Shown here: positions 13,908-63,907 of the stretch, piece by piece
Layout of the letters: every line of letters begins with the position of its first letter
How positions within the stretch are numbered: position 1 is the stretch's first letter
Assembly (NCBI GenBank): GCA_900318835.1
Contig: ONLW01000013.1
Coordinates: 60,043-124,042 of the forward strand
From: an uncultured Bacteroidales bacterium
GTDB lineage: Bacteria > Bacteroidota > Bacteroidia > Bacteroidales > P3
DNA length: 64,000 nucleotides
Direction of reading: 5' to 3'
Position numbers and translations under genes: made by a program
Notes under the pieces: generated by a model
The model's database searches: none
Told to the model about the DNA's origin: nothing
Seen by the model: the letters and a program-made list of their open reading frames with translations, nothing else

Positions 13908-14059
13908 TTCTAAATAAAGTTAAATATAAAAACGATGGGCGATGCACGTTATTTTGTAAAAATACAAATACTTTTTTGTCCCTCAAAATAATATTTCCTC
14001 CCTCCCCAGACCAATGCCAAATGTTAAAATATCCGTAGCCACCAAGTGGCTAAGAACCC

Positions 14060-14129
14060 CATACCAACGCCTTACCAACTCCCTACCAACTCCTACCATA
14101 GTAGGAGATGATAGGTATGTAATATGTTG
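14060..14129. repeat. 11-base-phased palindromic intergenic repeat, copy 2
   Basis: Left side: units like ACCAACGCCTT, ACCAACTCCCT and ACCAACTCCT, then CTACCATAGTAG as the centre near 14100. The right half is degenerate (GAGATGATAGGTATG). It lies between divergent tolC and pfp. It is the most decayed of the five copies on its right side. Confidence 0.75.
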
Positions 14130-24676: not shown

Positions 24677-24740
24677 ATACCTATCAACACCTGCTATGGT
24701 AGGAGTTGGTAAGGAGTTGGTAGGTATTTGGTAGGTGTAT
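24677..24740. repeat. 11-base-phased palindromic intergenic repeat, copy 3
   Basis: CTATCAACACC on the left, centre GCTATGGT near 24695, then AGGAGTTGGTA, AGGAGTTGGTA and GGTATTTGGTA on the right, about every 11 bases. The left arm is shorter than in copies 1 and 5. It lies between divergent hppA and pyrE. Confidence 0.82.
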
Positions 24741-38551: not shown

Positions 38552-38671
38552 ATGGACCTACCCAACCAAATTCCCGGCACCTCCGTCGGGGGCTTTGGAG
38601 AGGCCCTTAAGCAAGAGGATGAGAAAAGGTATACGTTTTTTATGGTAAAAACCTATACATTTTTAGGATAA
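38552..38671 (+). CDS. Small conserved ORF of cassette 1
   Basis: 39 codons beginning MDLPNQIPGTSVGGFGEAL, continuing into the AT-rich minisatellite, where the repeats encode TFFMVKTYTFLG before the stop. A near-identical ORF (31 codons) sits at 63717. Codon-position changes between the two are mostly silent in the first 20 codons (for example CTT kept, GGC kept, CCC/CCC, TTT/TTC), which hints at real coding or at a recent common origin. No signal peptide. Function unknown. Confidence 0.5.
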   Translation: MDLPNQIPGTSVGGFGEALKQEDEKRYTFFMVKTYTFLG

Positions 38672-38720
38672 AAATGTATACCTTTCTTAGGTAAAAATCT
38701 ATACCTTTTTTGGGGTGATT
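38628..38720. repeat. 23-base AT-rich minisatellite, locus 1
   Basis: Four units of 23-24 bases of the form nnTATACnTTTTTnnGGTAAAAA. They begin inside the small ORF and run past its stop. The same array with five units is at 63793. The 324-base gap 38510-38833 holds only the small ORF, this array and the short MAKTKWRSR ORF. Confidence 0.85.
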
Positions 38721-39304: not shown

Positions 39305-39373
39305 ACCTTTTACCTCGTATAAGTTGCCACCTTTTACTTCGTATTAGTTGCTACCTTTTACCTCGTACAAGTT
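39305..39373. repeat. 24-base tandem repeat (2.9 units)
   Basis: Units ACCTTTTACCTCGTATAAGT-TGCC, ACCTTTTACTTCGTATTAGT-TGCT and a partial ACCTTTTACCTCGTACAAGT repeat head to tail, directly upstream of the 39402 gene. Two to four base changes separate the units. It may contain the promoter region of the DUF6624/S41/M1 operon, though no clear TAnnTTTG box is present. Confidence 0.8.
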
Positions 39374-39401: not shown

Positions 39402-41021
39402 ATGAAAGAAACCTTGAGAACCATCCTACTGGCGGTGTGCATCGCGGTTTCGATTGTCGCAAACGCCCAGTCGGAACAGTGGAAGGCTTATTTGGACATG
39501 AATAACATGGAGGATGCCCTGCAGCGCGGCGACACAGCGACATTCAAGCGGCTGGCCTACCGCGTGGTCCGATGGAAAGGGTGGAACCCGCTGGTGTTCT
39601 ACTACACAGACCAATACAAGTTTTTGAAGGACTGCGACTGGTGGCCGGAACTGGACTCCATCCAGCAGGCCATCCACGGAAGGAAGGACTACAGCTACGC
39701 GGAGACATTGTACCAGATGGAACAGGAAGACCAAGCGGCGCGGCGTGCCTTCAACGACCCCGACCATACTCATACGAAGTCCGTCGAGGATTCGCTTTCG
39801 AGACGTATGCACGAAGTGGATTCGGTGAACCTCGCCAGGCTGGTATGGCTGATGGACACGCTGGGGTTCCCCTCATGGGATAGGGTGTGTTCCTACGGTG
39901 CACACGCAGCCTGGCTCATCGCACAGCATGCGCACCCTTGGTTCCAGTATGGCTACGTCAAGCAGATGCGTAAAGCGGTGGCGGACACCAACGCCGACCC
40001 GTCGAATCTGGCCTACCTGGAAGACCGTCTGCGTACAGGGCGCGGTCTGCCACAGCTTTACGGCACACAGTTCACTTCCACCGGCGAGAATAACCGGACG
40101 GTATGGCAATGTCCCATCGCCGACATCAAGAACGTCAATCTACGTCGCGGACAAATGCTTATGCCGCCGCTGGAGGATTATATCGAGGGTTATCTGAAGA
40201 CCGAGACCGAGCAAGGTCGGCTCGACAGCGACACCCCGCTGACAGAGATGGGGGACAACTATGTGCGATACTATTACCTCGGCGACCAGTATTCGCTTCT
40301 GCCTCTAGACAAGCAGGAGGGGGTGACGGATGCTGTGGCGTACACGACCACAGGCGACTACTGCGCTGCAATTTCCATTTTCTGCTCCCGGCTTTCGAAC
40401 CACTATCCCTTTGTGTGCGACCTGAAGCACTACATGGAATGCCTTCTGCGTAGCAAGTGTGTAGGGGACCAGTACTGCTACATCAGCCATTATGAGGTGC
40501 TGGAGCGCATGGTGCTCTGCGGCTACGAGCCGGACGCATGGCTCGATTCGCTGCCCGACACGCTCACTATGCCCCTGCTGGCCGATTACGCCAATCTGCG
40601 CGATGAGTACCTGCGCTACCTCAACCACGAGGATGACGCCGAGCTCACTGCCGCCCTTGCCAGTCGCGCCGACTTCGAGGCTTTGCTTCGAAGCGGCAAG
40701 AACTACCACCGCTACGAACTCGATGCATGGAACCATGCCTATCCCTTGTTGCGGAAGATGACCGACGAACTGACCAAAGGCGACTATGAAGAGTTCTTTG
40801 CCCTTCTTTGGCGCGAAGTGGAGCGTGGCAACCTCCACGCCGAAGATTACGCCTCGCTCTACGACCACACCTATTATCGTCTCTACGGCAAAGACTGGTA
40901 CAGAACCCTTGCCGCTGGTGTGCCGTCGGCTCGGCCGACAACCGACAAGCATATCCGTACCGCCAAACCGAAGACCCTCAACGAGCGCCGCCGCACAGTA
41001 TGTCTGCCGTCAGTAAAATAG
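39402..41021 (+). CDS. Secreted DUF6624-like protein
   Basis: A 539-residue protein with a signal peptide cut near VANAQ (23). Residues about 103-262 match the DUF6624 pattern from memory: QMEQEDQAARR, GFPSWDRVCSYGAHAAWLIAQHAHP, YLEDRLRTGRGLPQLYGTQ, and LRRGQMLMPPLEDY. The C-terminal end (LYGKDWYRTLA ... LNERRRTVCLPS) echoes the last part of the same domain, as if a second copy had decayed. The rest is Tyr/Trp-rich and unrecognised. It is the first gene of a three-gene run with the S41 and M1 peptidases (20-base gap, then a 1-base overlap). The function of DUF6624 is unknown. Confidence 0.75.
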   Translation: MKETLRTILLAVCIAVSIVANAQSEQWKAYLDMNNMEDALQRGDTATFKRLAYRVVRWKGWNPLVFYYTDQYKFLKDCDWWPELDSIQQAIHGRKDYSYAETLYQMEQEDQAARRAFNDPDHTHTKSVEDSLSRRMHEVDSVNLARLVWLMDTLGFPSWDRVCSYGAHAAWLIAQHAHPWFQYGYVKQMRKAVADTNADPSNLAYLEDRLRTGRGLPQLYGTQFTSTGENNRTVWQCPIADIKNVNLRRGQMLMPPLEDYIEGYLKTETEQGRLDSDTPLTEMGDNYVRYYYLGDQYSLLPLDKQEGVTDAVAYTTTGDYCAAISIFCSRLSNHYPFVCDLKHYMECLLRSKCVGDQYCYISHYEVLERMVLCGYEPDAWLDSLPDTLTMPLLADYANLRDEYLRYLNHEDDAELTAALASRADFEALLRSGKNYHRYELDAWNHAYPLLRKMTDELTKGDYEEFFALLWREVERGNLHAEDYASLYDHTYYRLYGKDWYRTLAAGVPSARPTTDKHIRTAKPKTLNERRRTVCLPSVK

Positions 41022-41041
41022 ACACGAAAAGAAATATCAAC

Positions 41042-42385
41042 ATGAAGAAAATAAACACATTGCTATTATTCGTGTTATCGATGCGTGTCGCTTCAGCGCA
41101 GGACACGCTCACTCCGGTGCAGATGCGGGAGGACTTCAATTATATGATGGAACAGTACGAGCACATCCACCCGAACCCGACGTGGTCGCTCGGCGAAGAG
41201 AGCTACAGCGAGCTGAAGCAACAGACTCTGGCACAGCTCGACCATCCGATGACTCAGTTCGACTTTTGGCGCATCATCGCCCGATGGAACCAACACTTCG
41301 ACGGCCATACGCATGTTGGCTGGCCGACAATACCACCGATGCCTGCGGGGATGATAGCTTTCCCACCCAAAAGCATCGTACAATACCGTAACAATAAATT
41401 ATTTTTCAGTGCTTACGAAGCGATGCCCGACAGCTTGCAGGGCTGTGAAATTCTCGCCATCAATGAACACCCCTCGGCAGAAATCATCGATTCCATCATG
41501 CCTTATGTTAGCCATGAAAGCGAGGCTCATATCAACAATGTCATTTTACGTTCACTCTACTGGTTCTATCAAGCTTTTAACGGATACAGCTCACAGATGG
41601 AGTTTCTCTATCGAACTACCGACGGCGAAAACACCGTCTTGTTGGACAGAAGGGCCCTCTACACTTGGCTTGTTCAAGTTGGTGATGTGGGAGAAATTGG
41701 AGGGGAAGGAGTTCGCGATTGCCCCTGGCATTTCAGCATCTTTCCCGAACAGGGCGTTGCATTGTTTGAATTCAACACTTGCGGCCCCAACGATAAGTTC
41801 CCGCAGTTCGATTCCGTTGTGGCGGCCTGCATCGACTCTGTCAACCACTATGGCATCAACCATCTGTTTGTGGACATCTCGCACAACGGCGGAGGCAACG
41901 ACGCTTTCTGCAAGCGCTTCCTTTGCCATCTCGACGGCCTTCCCGACACCGTGGCGGCCATGGACATGACGGACACCGAGATGGGTACCGTCGCGAATCC
42001 GGAAGAGAAGCGTGTAAAAATGTCATTCACCCCCAAGCACCCCTTGTACGGCGGCAAGCTGTACTTCATCCAGTCGCAGTTCACCTACTCCGCTGCCATC
42101 CTTCTTGCCAACCTGGCCAAGCAGTACCGACTGGGGCCGGTGATAGGGGAAGAGACGGGGGGCCTCACCACCACCTTTACCAGGCACAACTCTATCATGC
42201 TGCCCAACTCAGGCCTGACATTCTACTGCTCCGACAAGCAGTTCCGCCACTTTGGCACCACAGGCTCCCGAGGTGTGCTGCCCGACATCTCGCTGGAAAT
42301 CGGCTACAAATACCTCTTCCGCAGCTTCACCGCCAAGGAACTGCAGAAAATGATAACAATGTCTAACCAAAAAGATAAACAATAA
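41042..42385 (+). CDS. Secreted S41-family peptidase
   Basis: A 447-residue protein with a signal peptide (cut near ASAQ). S41 (C-terminal-processing protease/tricorn-like) features: HLFVDISHNGGGNDAF (275-289), the nucleophile serine in SQFTYSAAILLA (Ser350) and VIGEETGGLTTTF (367-379). No clear PDZ domain; the N-terminal part (DFNYMMEQYEHIHPNPTWS, WNQHFDGHTHVGWP) is typical of Bacteroidetes S41 relatives. The ATG at 41042, 20 bases after the DUF6624 gene, starts the signal peptide; the longer upstream frame has none. Stop and next start share a base (TAATG). Confidence 0.87.
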   Translation: MKKINTLLLFVLSMRVASAQDTLTPVQMREDFNYMMEQYEHIHPNPTWSLGEESYSELKQQTLAQLDHPMTQFDFWRIIARWNQHFDGHTHVGWPTIPPMPAGMIAFPPKSIVQYRNNKLFFSAYEAMPDSLQGCEILAINEHPSAEIIDSIMPYVSHESEAHINNVILRSLYWFYQAFNGYSSQMEFLYRTTDGENTVLLDRRALYTWLVQVGDVGEIGGEGVRDCPWHFSIFPEQGVALFEFNTCGPNDKFPQFDSVVAACIDSVNHYGINHLFVDISHNGGGNDAFCKRFLCHLDGLPDTVAAMDMTDTEMGTVANPEEKRVKMSFTPKHPLYGGKLYFIQSQFTYSAAILLANLAKQYRLGPVIGEETGGLTTTFTRHNSIMLPNSGLTFYCSDKQFRHFGTTGSRGVLPDISLEIGYKYLFRSFTAKELQKMITMSNQKDKQ

Positions 42386-44601
42386 TGAAGAAAGCCTTGA
42401 TTATAAGCTCGGTGCTCCTGTTTTTTACAGTCACTACATCGGCACAGACGCCTACATATAAGGAGTTGTCGGCAACCGCCTACAACTTGATTAAAGGGCA
42501 GGACTATATTGGGGCACATAAGGCTTTCCATACGATGGACTCCCTGTATGGAATAAGTGACTTCGAAGCCCTCTACTATTACTATGCCTTATCGCACGAC
42601 TTTGTGCATGACAGCGAGGCGGAAAAGGCCTTGATGTTCCGCCTGGCGCAAAACAAGTGCTGCGATATGCGCTACTTGGACGACTGGGCAAGAAGTCAGC
42701 AGGCAGACACGCTCGATTATTGGAACGACATTGTGGCCATCGTTGCACCCCGCGGCTATCAGGACACCGTCTATCAGAACCGCCTGCTGGCGATGAACAG
42801 AGCCAATAATGCAGCACGGCAGATGCAGAACAACACCCAAGATTCGGTGCGGGATGCCATGCGTATGGTTAACTCTGCCAATCTGAGTGAGTTGAAGCAG
42901 CTGATTGCCGAACGGGGTTTCCCAACATGCAGCAAGGTAGGCTACTATTGCGTCAAATATGCCTCAGCGATAGCTTTGTACCAGCCACTGGAGTTTCTCC
43001 ATTGGTATCTGGAACAGGCTAAAGCCGCCGCCGACAGCAGCGACTATGACCCTGAATGGCTCGGCTATCTGATTGACCGCGACAGGCGAGAGAGCATCTA
43101 CGACACTGTGTTCTACTCACGCATCGAGGCGATGTTCCAAGCCGACCAGGAGGCACGTCATCTGCTTAAAAGCGACATGGACCAAGCTTCGGCGTGGAGC
43201 ATCATCCACAAGGTCGATTCAGCCAATCTTATTGCACTTGAACAACTTATTGCCGAACGAGGATTCCCGACGCTGTCCAAATTGGGGTACAAATGCTGCG
43301 ACTACGCTGCCCTGATAGCGCAGCACTCGCCGCCAGAGTACCTGCATTGGTTTCTGGAGCAGGCGCAGGCTGCCGCCGACAGTGGTGACTTCATCCCCTC
43401 ATGGATAGCCTATATGACCGACCGTGACCTTGACCATCAGGACAAGCCTCAACTATACGGAACCCAAGGGCATACCCGCGACGGTCTGACAGGGATGTAC
43501 CTTATTGAGGATGTCGAGCATCTGAACGAACGGCGGCGAAGTATGGAGCTGGGACCCATTGAGGATTATCTTCCATACATGGATATGCCCGACTTCTATT
43601 TCCACCCCTCGCTTGTCAATTACAGACAATACAGCCTCAACCTCCGCATCGAGGGCGACACGCTGCGGGTGTCGGGTTTTTATCTCATCCCCTACGACAC
43701 CACCACCTATTCGGGACAACCCATCAAGGTCGATACAGCCTATTCCTTGCCACTTGCTGACTACCGCATGGCCGATGGAGCCATCGTGCTGCGCCGCGAG
43801 AGCAACTGGTATCCCCACAAGAACGGCGAGCTGTTGACTGCACAGGTGCACATCAAGGCCGACGACTACTATATCATCGGAGGCACAGAATGGCTTCCCT
43901 CGTTCGACATACACCTCGTCCTGCTGCCGAAAGACAAATACGCTCGCAAGGTGATTGACACTCCCACGCGCCCATTCCACTTTTATCGGCTTGCAAGCGA
44001 CACGACACAGTACCCCGACGCCTATTACAACGAGTTTGTGGATTCCTACAACTACTACTGCTCCTTCTTCGGCGATACCTTGTCATCAAAGCCGATGAAC
44101 ATCGTGGAGATTGGCGATCCGCAGTTTGTGATGTGCCAGTCGCTGCGCGACATGATTATCCTCGGACATTATTTCTATGATGTCTACACGATGATACCCG
44201 ACTTTTCGTGGATTCCTCACGAGGTGGCGCACCAATGGTGGGGCGACGGCATCTTCTTCGAATATCGCGACTACGCCCTCGGCGAAAGCCTGACCGAATA
44301 CATCAAACTGCAATACCTTAAAAGCCGCGGGCGTGGCTACGAGGAACAGATTGAATACTATAAGGCGACTATGGAGATGGCCGAAAAAACTTTGCCAATC
44401 GCCGACATCCGCAGTCTCGAGTCGCAGGACGAGTCCATTGCCATCTATCATACCGCACCATATCGCTTGACCCTTGAGGATACGGTGACTGTCAACACCG
44501 CCTTGCGGCAACTCTACAGCAAGTATAAACACACCATAGTGAACCGAGAAGTGTTCCTGCAAGAATGCAAGACATTGCAGAGCTGGCTGAAGTTTGAATA
44601 A
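42385..44601 (+). CDS. Secreted M1-type metallopeptidase fused to two DUF6624-like units
   Basis: 738 residues: signal peptide (cut near TTSAQ), then two related segments. The first (about 135-240) has SANLSELKQLIAERGFPT and LIDRDRRES; the second (about 245-395) has SANLIALEQLIAERGFPT, AALIAQHSPPEYLHWF, KPQLYGTQ and EHLNERRRSMELGPIEDYL. The C-terminal half is M1-like with zinc site HEVAHQWW (612-619) and the glutamate E634 in ALGESLTEY, the exact HExxH-18-E spacing of M1 peptidases. The gene shares its domain type with the 39402 gene and follows the S41 gene directly. Substrate unknown. Confidence 0.8.
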   Translation: MKKALIISSVLLFFTVTTSAQTPTYKELSATAYNLIKGQDYIGAHKAFHTMDSLYGISDFEALYYYYALSHDFVHDSEAEKALMFRLAQNKCCDMRYLDDWARSQQADTLDYWNDIVAIVAPRGYQDTVYQNRLLAMNRANNAARQMQNNTQDSVRDAMRMVNSANLSELKQLIAERGFPTCSKVGYYCVKYASAIALYQPLEFLHWYLEQAKAAADSSDYDPEWLGYLIDRDRRESIYDTVFYSRIEAMFQADQEARHLLKSDMDQASAWSIIHKVDSANLIALEQLIAERGFPTLSKLGYKCCDYAALIAQHSPPEYLHWFLEQAQAAADSGDFIPSWIAYMTDRDLDHQDKPQLYGTQGHTRDGLTGMYLIEDVEHLNERRRSMELGPIEDYLPYMDMPDFYFHPSLVNYRQYSLNLRIEGDTLRVSGFYLIPYDTTTYSGQPIKVDTAYSLPLADYRMADGAIVLRRESNWYPHKNGELLTAQVHIKADDYYIIGGTEWLPSFDIHLVLLPKDKYARKVIDTPTRPFHFYRLASDTTQYPDAYYNEFVDSYNYYCSFFGDTLSSKPMNIVEIGDPQFVMCQSLRDMIILGHYFYDVYTMIPDFSWIPHEVAHQWWGDGIFFEYRDYALGESLTEYIKLQYLKSRGRGYEEQIEYYKATMEMAEKTLPIADIRSLESQDESIAIYHTAPYRLTLEDTVTVNTALRQLYSKYKHTIVNREVFLQECKTLQSWLKFE

Positions 44602-44703
44602 TTCGCCGCGTAGCATGTCTTCAGCAAAATAGACAAAACACTTCTCCTCACCCTCACCACCGCTTCTGGCATGACTCACATTGTTCGCCTTCTAAGGAAA
44701 TAA
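44602..44703 (+). pseudogene. DUF6624-gene 3' remnant and flank repeat B
   Basis: After the M1 stop, the sequence CGCCGCGTAGCATGTCTTC then CAGCAAAATAGACA resembles the last bases and stop of the 39402 gene (CGCCGCACAGTATGTCTGCC, then CAGTAAAATAGACA). It looks like a left-over 3' end. Next comes repeat B (44644-44690), encoding LLTLTTASGMTHIVRL up to a stop at 44703, matching flank repeat A at 37859. Confidence 0.45.
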
Positions 44704-44712
44704 GATATTTCT

Positions 44713-44783
44713 CCCTACGAAAACCCTACCAACACCCTACCAACTCCTACCACAGTAGGAGTTGGTAGGGTGTTGGTAACTGG
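44713..44783. repeat. 11-base-phased palindromic intergenic repeat, copy 4
   Basis: CCCTACCAACA, CCCTACCAACT, the centre CCTACCACAGTAGG near 44754, then AGTTGGTAGGG and TGTTGGTAACTGG. It is the most regular copy. It lies 160 bases before the tRNA-Glu promoter. The remainder of 44784-44944 shows nothing recognisable. Confidence 0.85.
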
Positions 44784-56130: not shown

Positions 56131-56222
56131 AGTAGATGATAGGTATAAACTACCTATCATCTCCTTATCAACTCCTAACCAACTCCTACCATGGTAGGTG
56201 TTGATAGGGGTGTGGTAGGTGG
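56131..56222. repeat. 11-base-phased palindromic intergenic repeat, copy 5
   Basis: Two adjacent dyads. The first is GATGATAGGTA (56135-56145) with TACCTATCATC (56151-56161), an 11-base perfect inverted repeat. The second is the usual centre CCATGG flanked by CTCCTTATCAA, CTCCTAACCAA, CTCCTAC on the left and GTAGGTGTTGATAGGGGTGT type on the right. It lies between the MATE terminator and sufB. Confidence 0.83.
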
Positions 56223-63716: not shown

Positions 63717-63812
63717 ATGGACTTCCCCAACCAAATCCCCGGCACCTCCGTCGGGGGCTTCGGAGAGGCTCTTAGGCAAGAGGAGGAGGAAAGGTATATA
63801 TTTTTAGTATAA
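63717..63812 (+). CDS. Small conserved ORF of cassette 2
   Basis: 31 codons beginning MDFPNQIPGTSVGGFGEALR, ending in the 23-base minisatellite (YIFLV, stop). It pairs with the ORF at 38552. An in-frame ATG lies six bases upstream. Function unknown. Confidence 0.5.
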   Translation: MDFPNQIPGTSVGGFGEALRQEEEERYIFLV

Positions 63813-63907
63813 AAACCTATACATTTTTATGGTAAAAAGGTATATATTTTTTAGGTAAAAACCTATACATTTTTTGGATAGAAAGATATACATTTTTTAG
63901 GGAGTTG
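63793..63907. repeat. 23-base AT-rich minisatellite, locus 2
   Basis: Five units of 23 bases (nnTATA(C/T)ATTTTTnnGGTAAAAA), regular in length. The pattern resembles the 23-base tandem repeats in BrickBuilt MITEs of Porphyromonas gingivalis known to me, but identity is not shown. Confidence 0.85.

Follow-up and report, generated by a model that had tools for sequence, protein, structure and literature searches.

A predicted exported locus of uncultured Bacteroidales that couples the graspetide-associated domain DUF6624 to S41 and M1-like peptidases in interchangeable arrangements

We describe a three-gene locus at positions 39402 to 44601 of a 64,000-nucleotide stretch of DNA (the window) from contig ONLW01000013.1 of an uncultured Bacteroidales bacterium (GCA_900318835.1). 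The locus encodes a protein with the domain DUF6624, an S41 peptidase, and a fusion of DUF6624 units to an M1-like metallopeptidase; in related genomes these parts are reordered and fused to one another. From sequence comparisons we tentatively propose, as a possibility that we rate somewhat short of even, that they form a system, exported and probably periplasmic, that processes or clears peptides and couples a domain associated with graspetide clusters to two peptidases. The genome of the window comprises 2.34 Mb in 43 contigs and is 94.6% complete, with the locus on contig C35.

Results

Architecture of the locus

The genes, and the units identified within them, are as follows.

39402..41021, + strand: gene 1 (P0001), exported DUF6624 protein, 539 amino acids; open reading frame; Pfam DUF6624 45.2 bits
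39717..40181, + strand: intact DUF6624 unit of gene 1, residues 106-260; own profile 164.2 bits; key residues 13/13
40788..41015, + strand: weak C-terminal DUF6624-like remnant of gene 1, residues 463-538; own profile 7.5 bits
41042..42385, + strand: gene 2 (P0002), exported S41 peptidase, 447 amino acids; open reading frame; Pfam Peptidase_S41 45.7 bits; putative catalytic Ser350, His89
42385..44601, + strand: gene 3 (P0003), exported, 738 amino acids, DUF6624 units fused to an M1-like metallopeptidase; open reading frame; Pfam
42808..43089, + strand: truncated, degenerate DUF6624 unit of gene 3, residues 142-235; own profile 64.1 bits, profile positions 6-102 of 148
43132..43569, + strand: intact DUF6624 unit of gene 3, residues 250-395; own profile 160.6 bits; key residues 12/12
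43600..44598, + strand: M1-like metallopeptidase module of gene 3, residues 406-738; Pfam M1 E 6e-5, under cut-off; relative L103 55.1 bits
44218..44232, + strand: HEVAH zinc-site motif of gene 3; from the sequence; H, E and H kept in compared copies where read

The three open reading frames are tightly packed, with a gap of 20 bases between genes 1 and 2 and an overlap of one base between genes 2 and 3, and by eye each N-terminus reads as a hydrophobic signal peptide with AQ at its end; the first-pass annotation of this DNA had described packed, secreted genes, and in this it is borne out. Pfam gave no match to the type IX sorting domains Por_Secre_tail or CHU_C in P0001, P0002 or P0003. Because AQ signal peptides are present and a type IX sorting domain is not found, periplasmic export is the simplest reading, and the three proteins are predicted to be exported, probably to the periplasm. 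DUF6624 (PF20329), which had been named in genes 1 and 3, is confirmed in both, with 45.2 bits in gene 1 and 52.6 bits over two stretches in gene 3 (Pfam gathering cut-offs are 27 bits for DUF6624, 24 for Peptidase_S41 and 27.7 for Peptidase_M1); the C-terminal half of gene 1 has no Pfam match. The individual units were delimited with a profile built in this analysis. The proposed composition of gene 3, an M1 peptidase joined to two DUF6624-like units, stands in part: one unit is intact and the other truncated, and the match to Peptidase_M1 (PF01433; 23.2 bits, E 6e-5) lies under the Pfam cut-off with the zinc-site residues intact.

The S41 and M1-like peptidases

Conservation of residues was surveyed in copies covering at least 55% of the respective module, from the stretches (L) and genomes (G) compared. 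Asp87, His89, Ser350 and Glu370 of the S41 peptidase are intact in 14 of 14 copies, the window's included, and Ser350 is the putative catalytic residue; His91 is replaced in seven copies, Glu371 in L035 and Lys399 in L240. In M1 peptidases an exopeptidase motif, GxMEN, is found, and 18 residues separate the HEXXH motif from a downstream glutamate. The module of gene 3 resembles Peptidase family M1 in its HEXXH zinc site, downstream Glu and Tyr, and departs from it in its sub-threshold score, in a spacing of 17 rather than 18 residues between HEXXH and Glu, and in a conserved CQSL, aligned by eye, at the place expected for GxMEN. The zinc-site residues are intact wherever they can be read, L039 and L054 being gapped there and L055 and L069 having unread bases. 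A PDB profile search with the window's module returned no match; its distant relative L103 scores 55.1 bits against Pfam M1, and in the PDB matches aminopeptidase N and then tricorn factor F3. The M1 assignment is based on the conserved HEXXH...E...Y together with the score and PDB matches of L103. Without the GxMEN motif, the module would more likely be an endopeptidase, or else an exopeptidase of an unusual kind. Ratios of nonsynonymous to synonymous divergence (dN/dS) are 0.09-0.29 across the modules where computable, with a few distant pairs saturated, and the modules evolve under purifying selection. That the peptidases are inactive relics was rejected, as the main residues and selection are intact.

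Tricorn protease is an S41 endopeptidase that works with M1 interacting factors, and a tricorn-like pair of S41 and M1 enzymes might serve general periplasmic peptide catabolism or protein quality control, unrelated to graspetides and with DUF6624 in a structural or docking role. The joint presence of S41 and M1 peptidases and the match of L103 to F3, after aminopeptidase N, are the main resemblances, and in a distant Bacteroidota genome one chain (L090 1462-3249, G364) carries Tricorn_C1, Peptidase_S41 and DUF6624, all above Pfam cut-offs; most of the DUF6624 loci inspected below, moreover, are not near a GRASP gene. However, the fusion in G364 is a single case, found at E 1e-20 in 1 of 92 genomes of its family, G364 itself. 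P0002 has no Tricorn_C1 match (Pfam, E 1), and the window set further differs from tricorn in being exported, in its M1 module without GxMEN and in the addition of DUF6624. Its patchy presence in the family also fits a housekeeping function poorly, and we regard this explanation as somewhat unlikely.

Reordering and fusion of the modules in relatives

Four modules (gene 1, S41, the DUF6624 half of gene 3 and the M1 module) were mapped on 56 stretches. The adjacency seen in the window extends beyond this genome: the same gene order is found in L032 (G103), and other stretches carry subsets and fusions. In L033 gene 1 is followed by an S41-DUF6624 fusion and then gene 3, and in L035 an S41-gene 1 fusion precedes gene 3; L034 and L036 have gene 1 then gene 3, while L065 has gene 1 then S41, without M1. 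In place of the S41 gene, L038 and L039 have a second DUF6624 protein, as does L037, where it is broken. S41 is fused to M1 in L044, L046 and L048, the M1 module is joined to the S41 signal region in L045 and L047, and a separate M1 module follows gene 1 in L050 and L051; the remaining stretches hold single modules or are cut at contig ends. One-frame fusions occur in all three pairings: S41-DUF6624 (L033, L035), S41-M1 (L044, L046, L048) and DUF6624-M1 (P0003 and its relatives). Over 190 genomes of the window's family, gene 1 is found with the M1 module in 20 of 23 genomes (Fisher p 4e-15), S41 with M1 in 9 of 13 (p 3e-5) and S41 with gene 1 in 8 of 13 (p 1e-5), with sets drawn by hand, partial matches counted and statistics that ignore relatedness. 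Adjacency, co-occurrence and fusion in all pairings support the view, formed earlier from the window, that the three proteins belong together.

The fusions and reshuffling could instead be by-products of a recombination-prone region and uninformative on shared function. A relic of gene 1 lies immediately past gene 3:

44604..44638, + strand: remnant like the gene 1 3' end, past the gene 3 stop; local alignment score 42

None of 2000 shuffles reaches this score, and the position is the best in the window besides gene 1 itself; the remnant is also present after gene 3 in L043. This relic and the chimeric debris in L059 speak for such a region. Near-identical gene 1 ends precede different next genes, and copies with the same type of next gene lie scattered in the tree of gene 1, several nodes of which are poorly supported. 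Against this explanation, the S41-DUF6624 and S41-M1 fusions retain frame, catalytic residues and purifying selection, and the S41-M1 junction recurs in three genomes with two S41 types, and we consider it rather remote.

Genomic sites vary between relatives, the window's site being common to L043. In L036, L037, L038, L060 and L062, the gene 1 open reading frame is preceded, at a distance of 9-20 bases, by genes for beta-propeller-like secreted proteins, and the locus might act in processing these proteins; of two tested, one just reaches the Por_Secre_tail cut-off (27.2 bits, cut-off 27) and the other scores 23.1. No beta-propeller-like gene lies directly upstream of gene 1 in the window or L032, and the window proteins are themselves without a sorting domain, which makes this role a distant prospect.

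Distribution and exchange between species

The closest named contigs come from uncultured Bacteroidales, several of them with yak, goat or water buffalo as source, and the modules are found again, at other sites, in rumen Bacteroidales close to Candidatus Colimorpha; contigs with RUG names we take to be rumen genomes. Of the 190 family genomes, 45 have relatives of P0003 (E 1e-5); counting the window genome, 35 of these belong to the window's genus, and some of the 45 match through the DUF6624 part alone. P0001 has relatives in 37 (E 1e-8) and P0002 in 16 (E 1e-20). Beyond the family the M1 module is scarce: a search of 247 order genomes at E 1e-8 yielded two, one of them the window genome itself. 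A phage or plasmid module is unsupported: P0003 had no match in phages, and the plasmid matches of P0001 (15 records) are divergent and partial, all below 60% identity and none over more than 80% of the length, with all five of the 15 that were listed confined to the DUF6624 part.

Divergence at synonymous sites (dS) between the window and G103 differs from module to module, at 0.10 for S41, 0.26 for the DUF6624 half of gene 3, 0.49 for gene 1 and 0.65 for the M1 module, as compared with 1.49 for topB, the sole core-gene reference; topB dS ranges from 0.90 to 1.49 in the eight genomes, out of nine, for which it is computable. Because dS is unequal and low within one locus, transfer and module-wise recombination are indicated. 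The argument rests on a single core gene, which weakens it, and so does S41 in two genomes, where dS against the window exceeds that of topB (1.37 against 1.13 in G091 and 1.35 against 1.09 in G094); in G100 it is close to it (1.23 and 1.29). Since their S41 dS exceeds or nears topB, these three genomes would carry another S41 type, and their M1 modules are at dS 0.54, 0.68 and 0.68 (G091, G094 and G100), under topB. Module-wise exchange between species is accordingly supported but not proved by these sequence comparisons.

DUF6624 and its presence in graspetide clusters

A polar set of residues (Q-H, D-R, QxYGTQ and RR) is near-invariant in the intact DUF6624 units of the locus and in diverse aligned relatives; among the module copies surveyed as above, gaps aside, the exceptions are a changed D-R in L043 and YGSQ in L052. 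The truncated unit of gene 3 does not retain the set. A PDB profile search with DUF6624 gave no match, and a viral scan with one DUF6624 protein led nowhere. The conservation of these polar residues suggests that the domain more likely performs chemistry than mere binding. The first-pass annotation had the domain binding or presenting the substrate; this is not favoured over catalysis, given the retained polar set and the enzymatic role suggested for what is likely the same family (Makarova et al. 2022, PMC8939145).

That work describes a 'cluster 23' family, many members of which are secreted, with conserved His and Arg, found in almost all loci of a SPASM-bearing, Bacteroides-specific graspetide branch and predicted to be auxiliary extracellular enzymes (PMC8939145). 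DUF6624 is reported elsewhere as a companion in graspetide clusters with its function unassigned (PMC13097080). From position and shared features we infer that cluster 23 and DUF6624 are one family, a link with graspetide clusters that the earlier reading of the window did not contain.

Such clusters are found close to the window in phylogeny. In G014 (L063), of the window's genus, a gene 1 counterpart (Pfam DUF6624 42.0 bits) stops 18 bases before an ATP-grasp ligase of the GRASP_w_spasm family (298 bits, cut-off 230), and is preceded by a candidate precursor of 79 residues with a GG site (L063 3030-3269); the cluster also has SPASM-like, OEP and C39-type ATP-binding cassette (ABC) transporter genes. 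This counterpart is sister to an S41-fused copy in the gene 1 tree (support 0.96). On a contig of yak abomasum Bacteroidales (L125), an exported DUF6624 protein is flanked by an 80-residue candidate precursor, picked by eye, and a TIGR04192 ligase; the ligase and two TIGR04193 SPASM proteins there all score above their cut-offs. TIGR04192 has seven matches over cut-off in the window's family, in 5 of 190 genomes, and at six of these seven loci an open reading frame upstream of the ligase matches our DUF6624 profile at E <=1e-3 in a small search, weakly in L266 and L269 (both 3e-4) and with a small open reading frame intervening before the ligase in L268; YGTQ is kept in two of the six (L063 and L267). 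In a sample of the order, whose ligase stretches are partly cut by contig ends, the profile matches within about 1.5 kb of 6 of 29 ligases, or 5 of 20 over cut-off, and YGTQ is kept in three of those five. Counts made with our profile are laxer than Pfam, since L281 is matched by our profile and missed by Pfam; a broader 'extended family' profile, which relies on a helical N-terminal region, was left out of the counts. DUF6624 is common at large, being present in 42 of 296 phylum genomes.

Three further observations concern these neighbourhoods. A small open reading frame of 55-63 residues lies between the ligase and SPASM genes in each of L063 and L266-L270, a place that fits the LPL family (PMC8939145). 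S41 matches lie near the graspetide clusters of L267 and L269, and were not used as evidence, S41 being a common family. An exported DUF6624 protein in L123 (7756-8679) lies near BlaI-like, BlaR1-like and ADOP-like permease genes, all below NCBIfam cut-offs, possibly an antibiotic- or peptide-sensing setting.

The locus could also mature a peptide whose precursor is encoded elsewhere, such as a ribosomally synthesized and post-translationally modified peptide (RiPP), with DUF6624 as a tailoring enzyme and the peptidases as trimmers of leader or core. An as yet undiscovered class of biosynthetic enzyme is one possibility raised for DUF6624 in graspetide clusters (PMC13097080), and RiPPs are processed by M1 and M61 peptidases (PMC10885120). 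Yet the window genome (G000) has no match to the GRASP_w_spasm (TIGR04192) ligase at E 1e-10, in searches with grasp-with-spasm queries, which may miss other ligase types. The stretches of 27 genomes, several of them incomplete, span 55% or more of gene 1 or of the DUF6624 half of gene 3; in these genomes TIGR04192 scores over cut-off once (G014) and under it once (G047). With 26 of 27 genomes lacking a match over cut-off, action on peptides from outside seems likelier than maturation of an own product, which we hold to be improbable.

Repeats in and around the locus

A short tandem array lies upstream of gene 1:

39305..39373, strand not assigned: 24-base tandem repeat, 2.9 copies; ends 28 bases before gene 1

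This repeat forms three arrays in the window genome, the other two, of three copies each, being on contigs C17 and C23. A shared regulatory signal was considered and set aside, the C17 and C23 arrays lying in long intergenic spacers with no obvious common gene. Related-looking AT-rich tandem repeats of 23 bases are present at 38630-38711 and 63790-63901, and 11-base repeats of the type CCCTACCAACA or its complement at 2459-2546, 14055-14098, 24697-24736, 44713-44752 and 56144-56187, of which the array at 44713-44752 sits just past the locus.

Discussion

The locus shares DUF6624 with graspetide clusters and differs from them in the partners of this domain. The cluster 23 loci (PMC8939145) and the DUF6624 loci found here are alike, with the secreted protein upstream of the ligase and an LPL-like small open reading frame before the SPASM gene, whereas in the window no ligase, SPASM or precursor gene was found and DUF6624 is coupled to two peptidases. 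The companions in graspetide groups 18, 20, 23 and 42 belong to the same Pfam family as the window domain (PMC13097080); the section concerned names no DUF6624 for SPASM group 14 and no fusion of DUF6624 to a peptidase. In the open-licence literature, covered mostly at the level of listings, DUF6624 is named in one paper and PF20329 in none, and we met no description of DUF6624 together with S41 and M1 peptidases. The graspetides characterized so far are protease inhibitors (PMC8939145), as are microviridins (PMC9826346), and proteases in other graspetide groups may act in maturation or resistance (PMC13097080).

Under the proposed peptide-processing or peptide-clearing system, the three exported parts would most likely act on one peptide substrate. 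DUF6624 would recognise or chemically alter this peptide, which in the clusters may be the exported graspetide, and the S41 and M1-like peptidases would then cut it, S41 presumably internally, as its family suggests. As the window genome gave no match to a grasp-with-spasm ligase, the substrate would more likely be peptides made by other cells than an own product, and the role one of resistance or scavenging.

Several results weigh against this proposal. The gene order of the window is found in 2 of 56 stretches, the window and L032, many stretches stopping at contig ends. Part of the fusions may be debris: in L043 the reading frame of the gene 1-M1 fusion is broken within gene 1, and L059 and L062 hold remnants. 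The S41 copies of L228-L231 are solitary, while L232 begins 521 bases from a contig end. Several DUF6624 relatives linked to graspetide clusters are without YGTQ, which is present in 5 of the 11 above-cut-off ligase loci with a DUF6624-profile open reading frame (L063, L267, L288, L289 and L303). In a sample of the phylum, a GRASP-like gene lies within 1.5 kb in none of 30 DUF6624 loci, and among named DUF6624 loci (the best 77 of 498) one is nearby in 5 of 77; L150 of these five is the G014 contig again, and L136 and L143 are weak and actinobacterial. These low counts (0/30 and 5/77) imply that DUF6624 is not solely a family of graspetide clusters.

A more specific form of the proposal, which we regard as a long shot, is that DUF6624 acts in the periplasm as an enzyme opening the side-chain ester or amide links of graspetides, and in clusters would protect the producer. 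The window would then hold an orphan form of the system, traded horizontally, whose attached S41 and M1 enzymes destroy the peptide once it is opened, with modules swapped in the course of an arms race in the rumen.

Taken together, the main points of note are that the modules are fused in varied combinations, that there are signs of their exchange between species, and that an unexplained companion of graspetides is here tied to two peptidases. Among the companions of graspetide clusters that lack an explanation, secreted proteins of apparently this family are some of the commonest (PMC8939145), and a locus in which DUF6624 is fused to peptidases of known chemistry, with no biosynthetic genes nearby, offers a direct route to the role of the domain. 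If cross-linked peptides are cleared in this way, the locus would represent transferable resistance to, or scavenging of, a large group of natural products that includes protease inhibitors.

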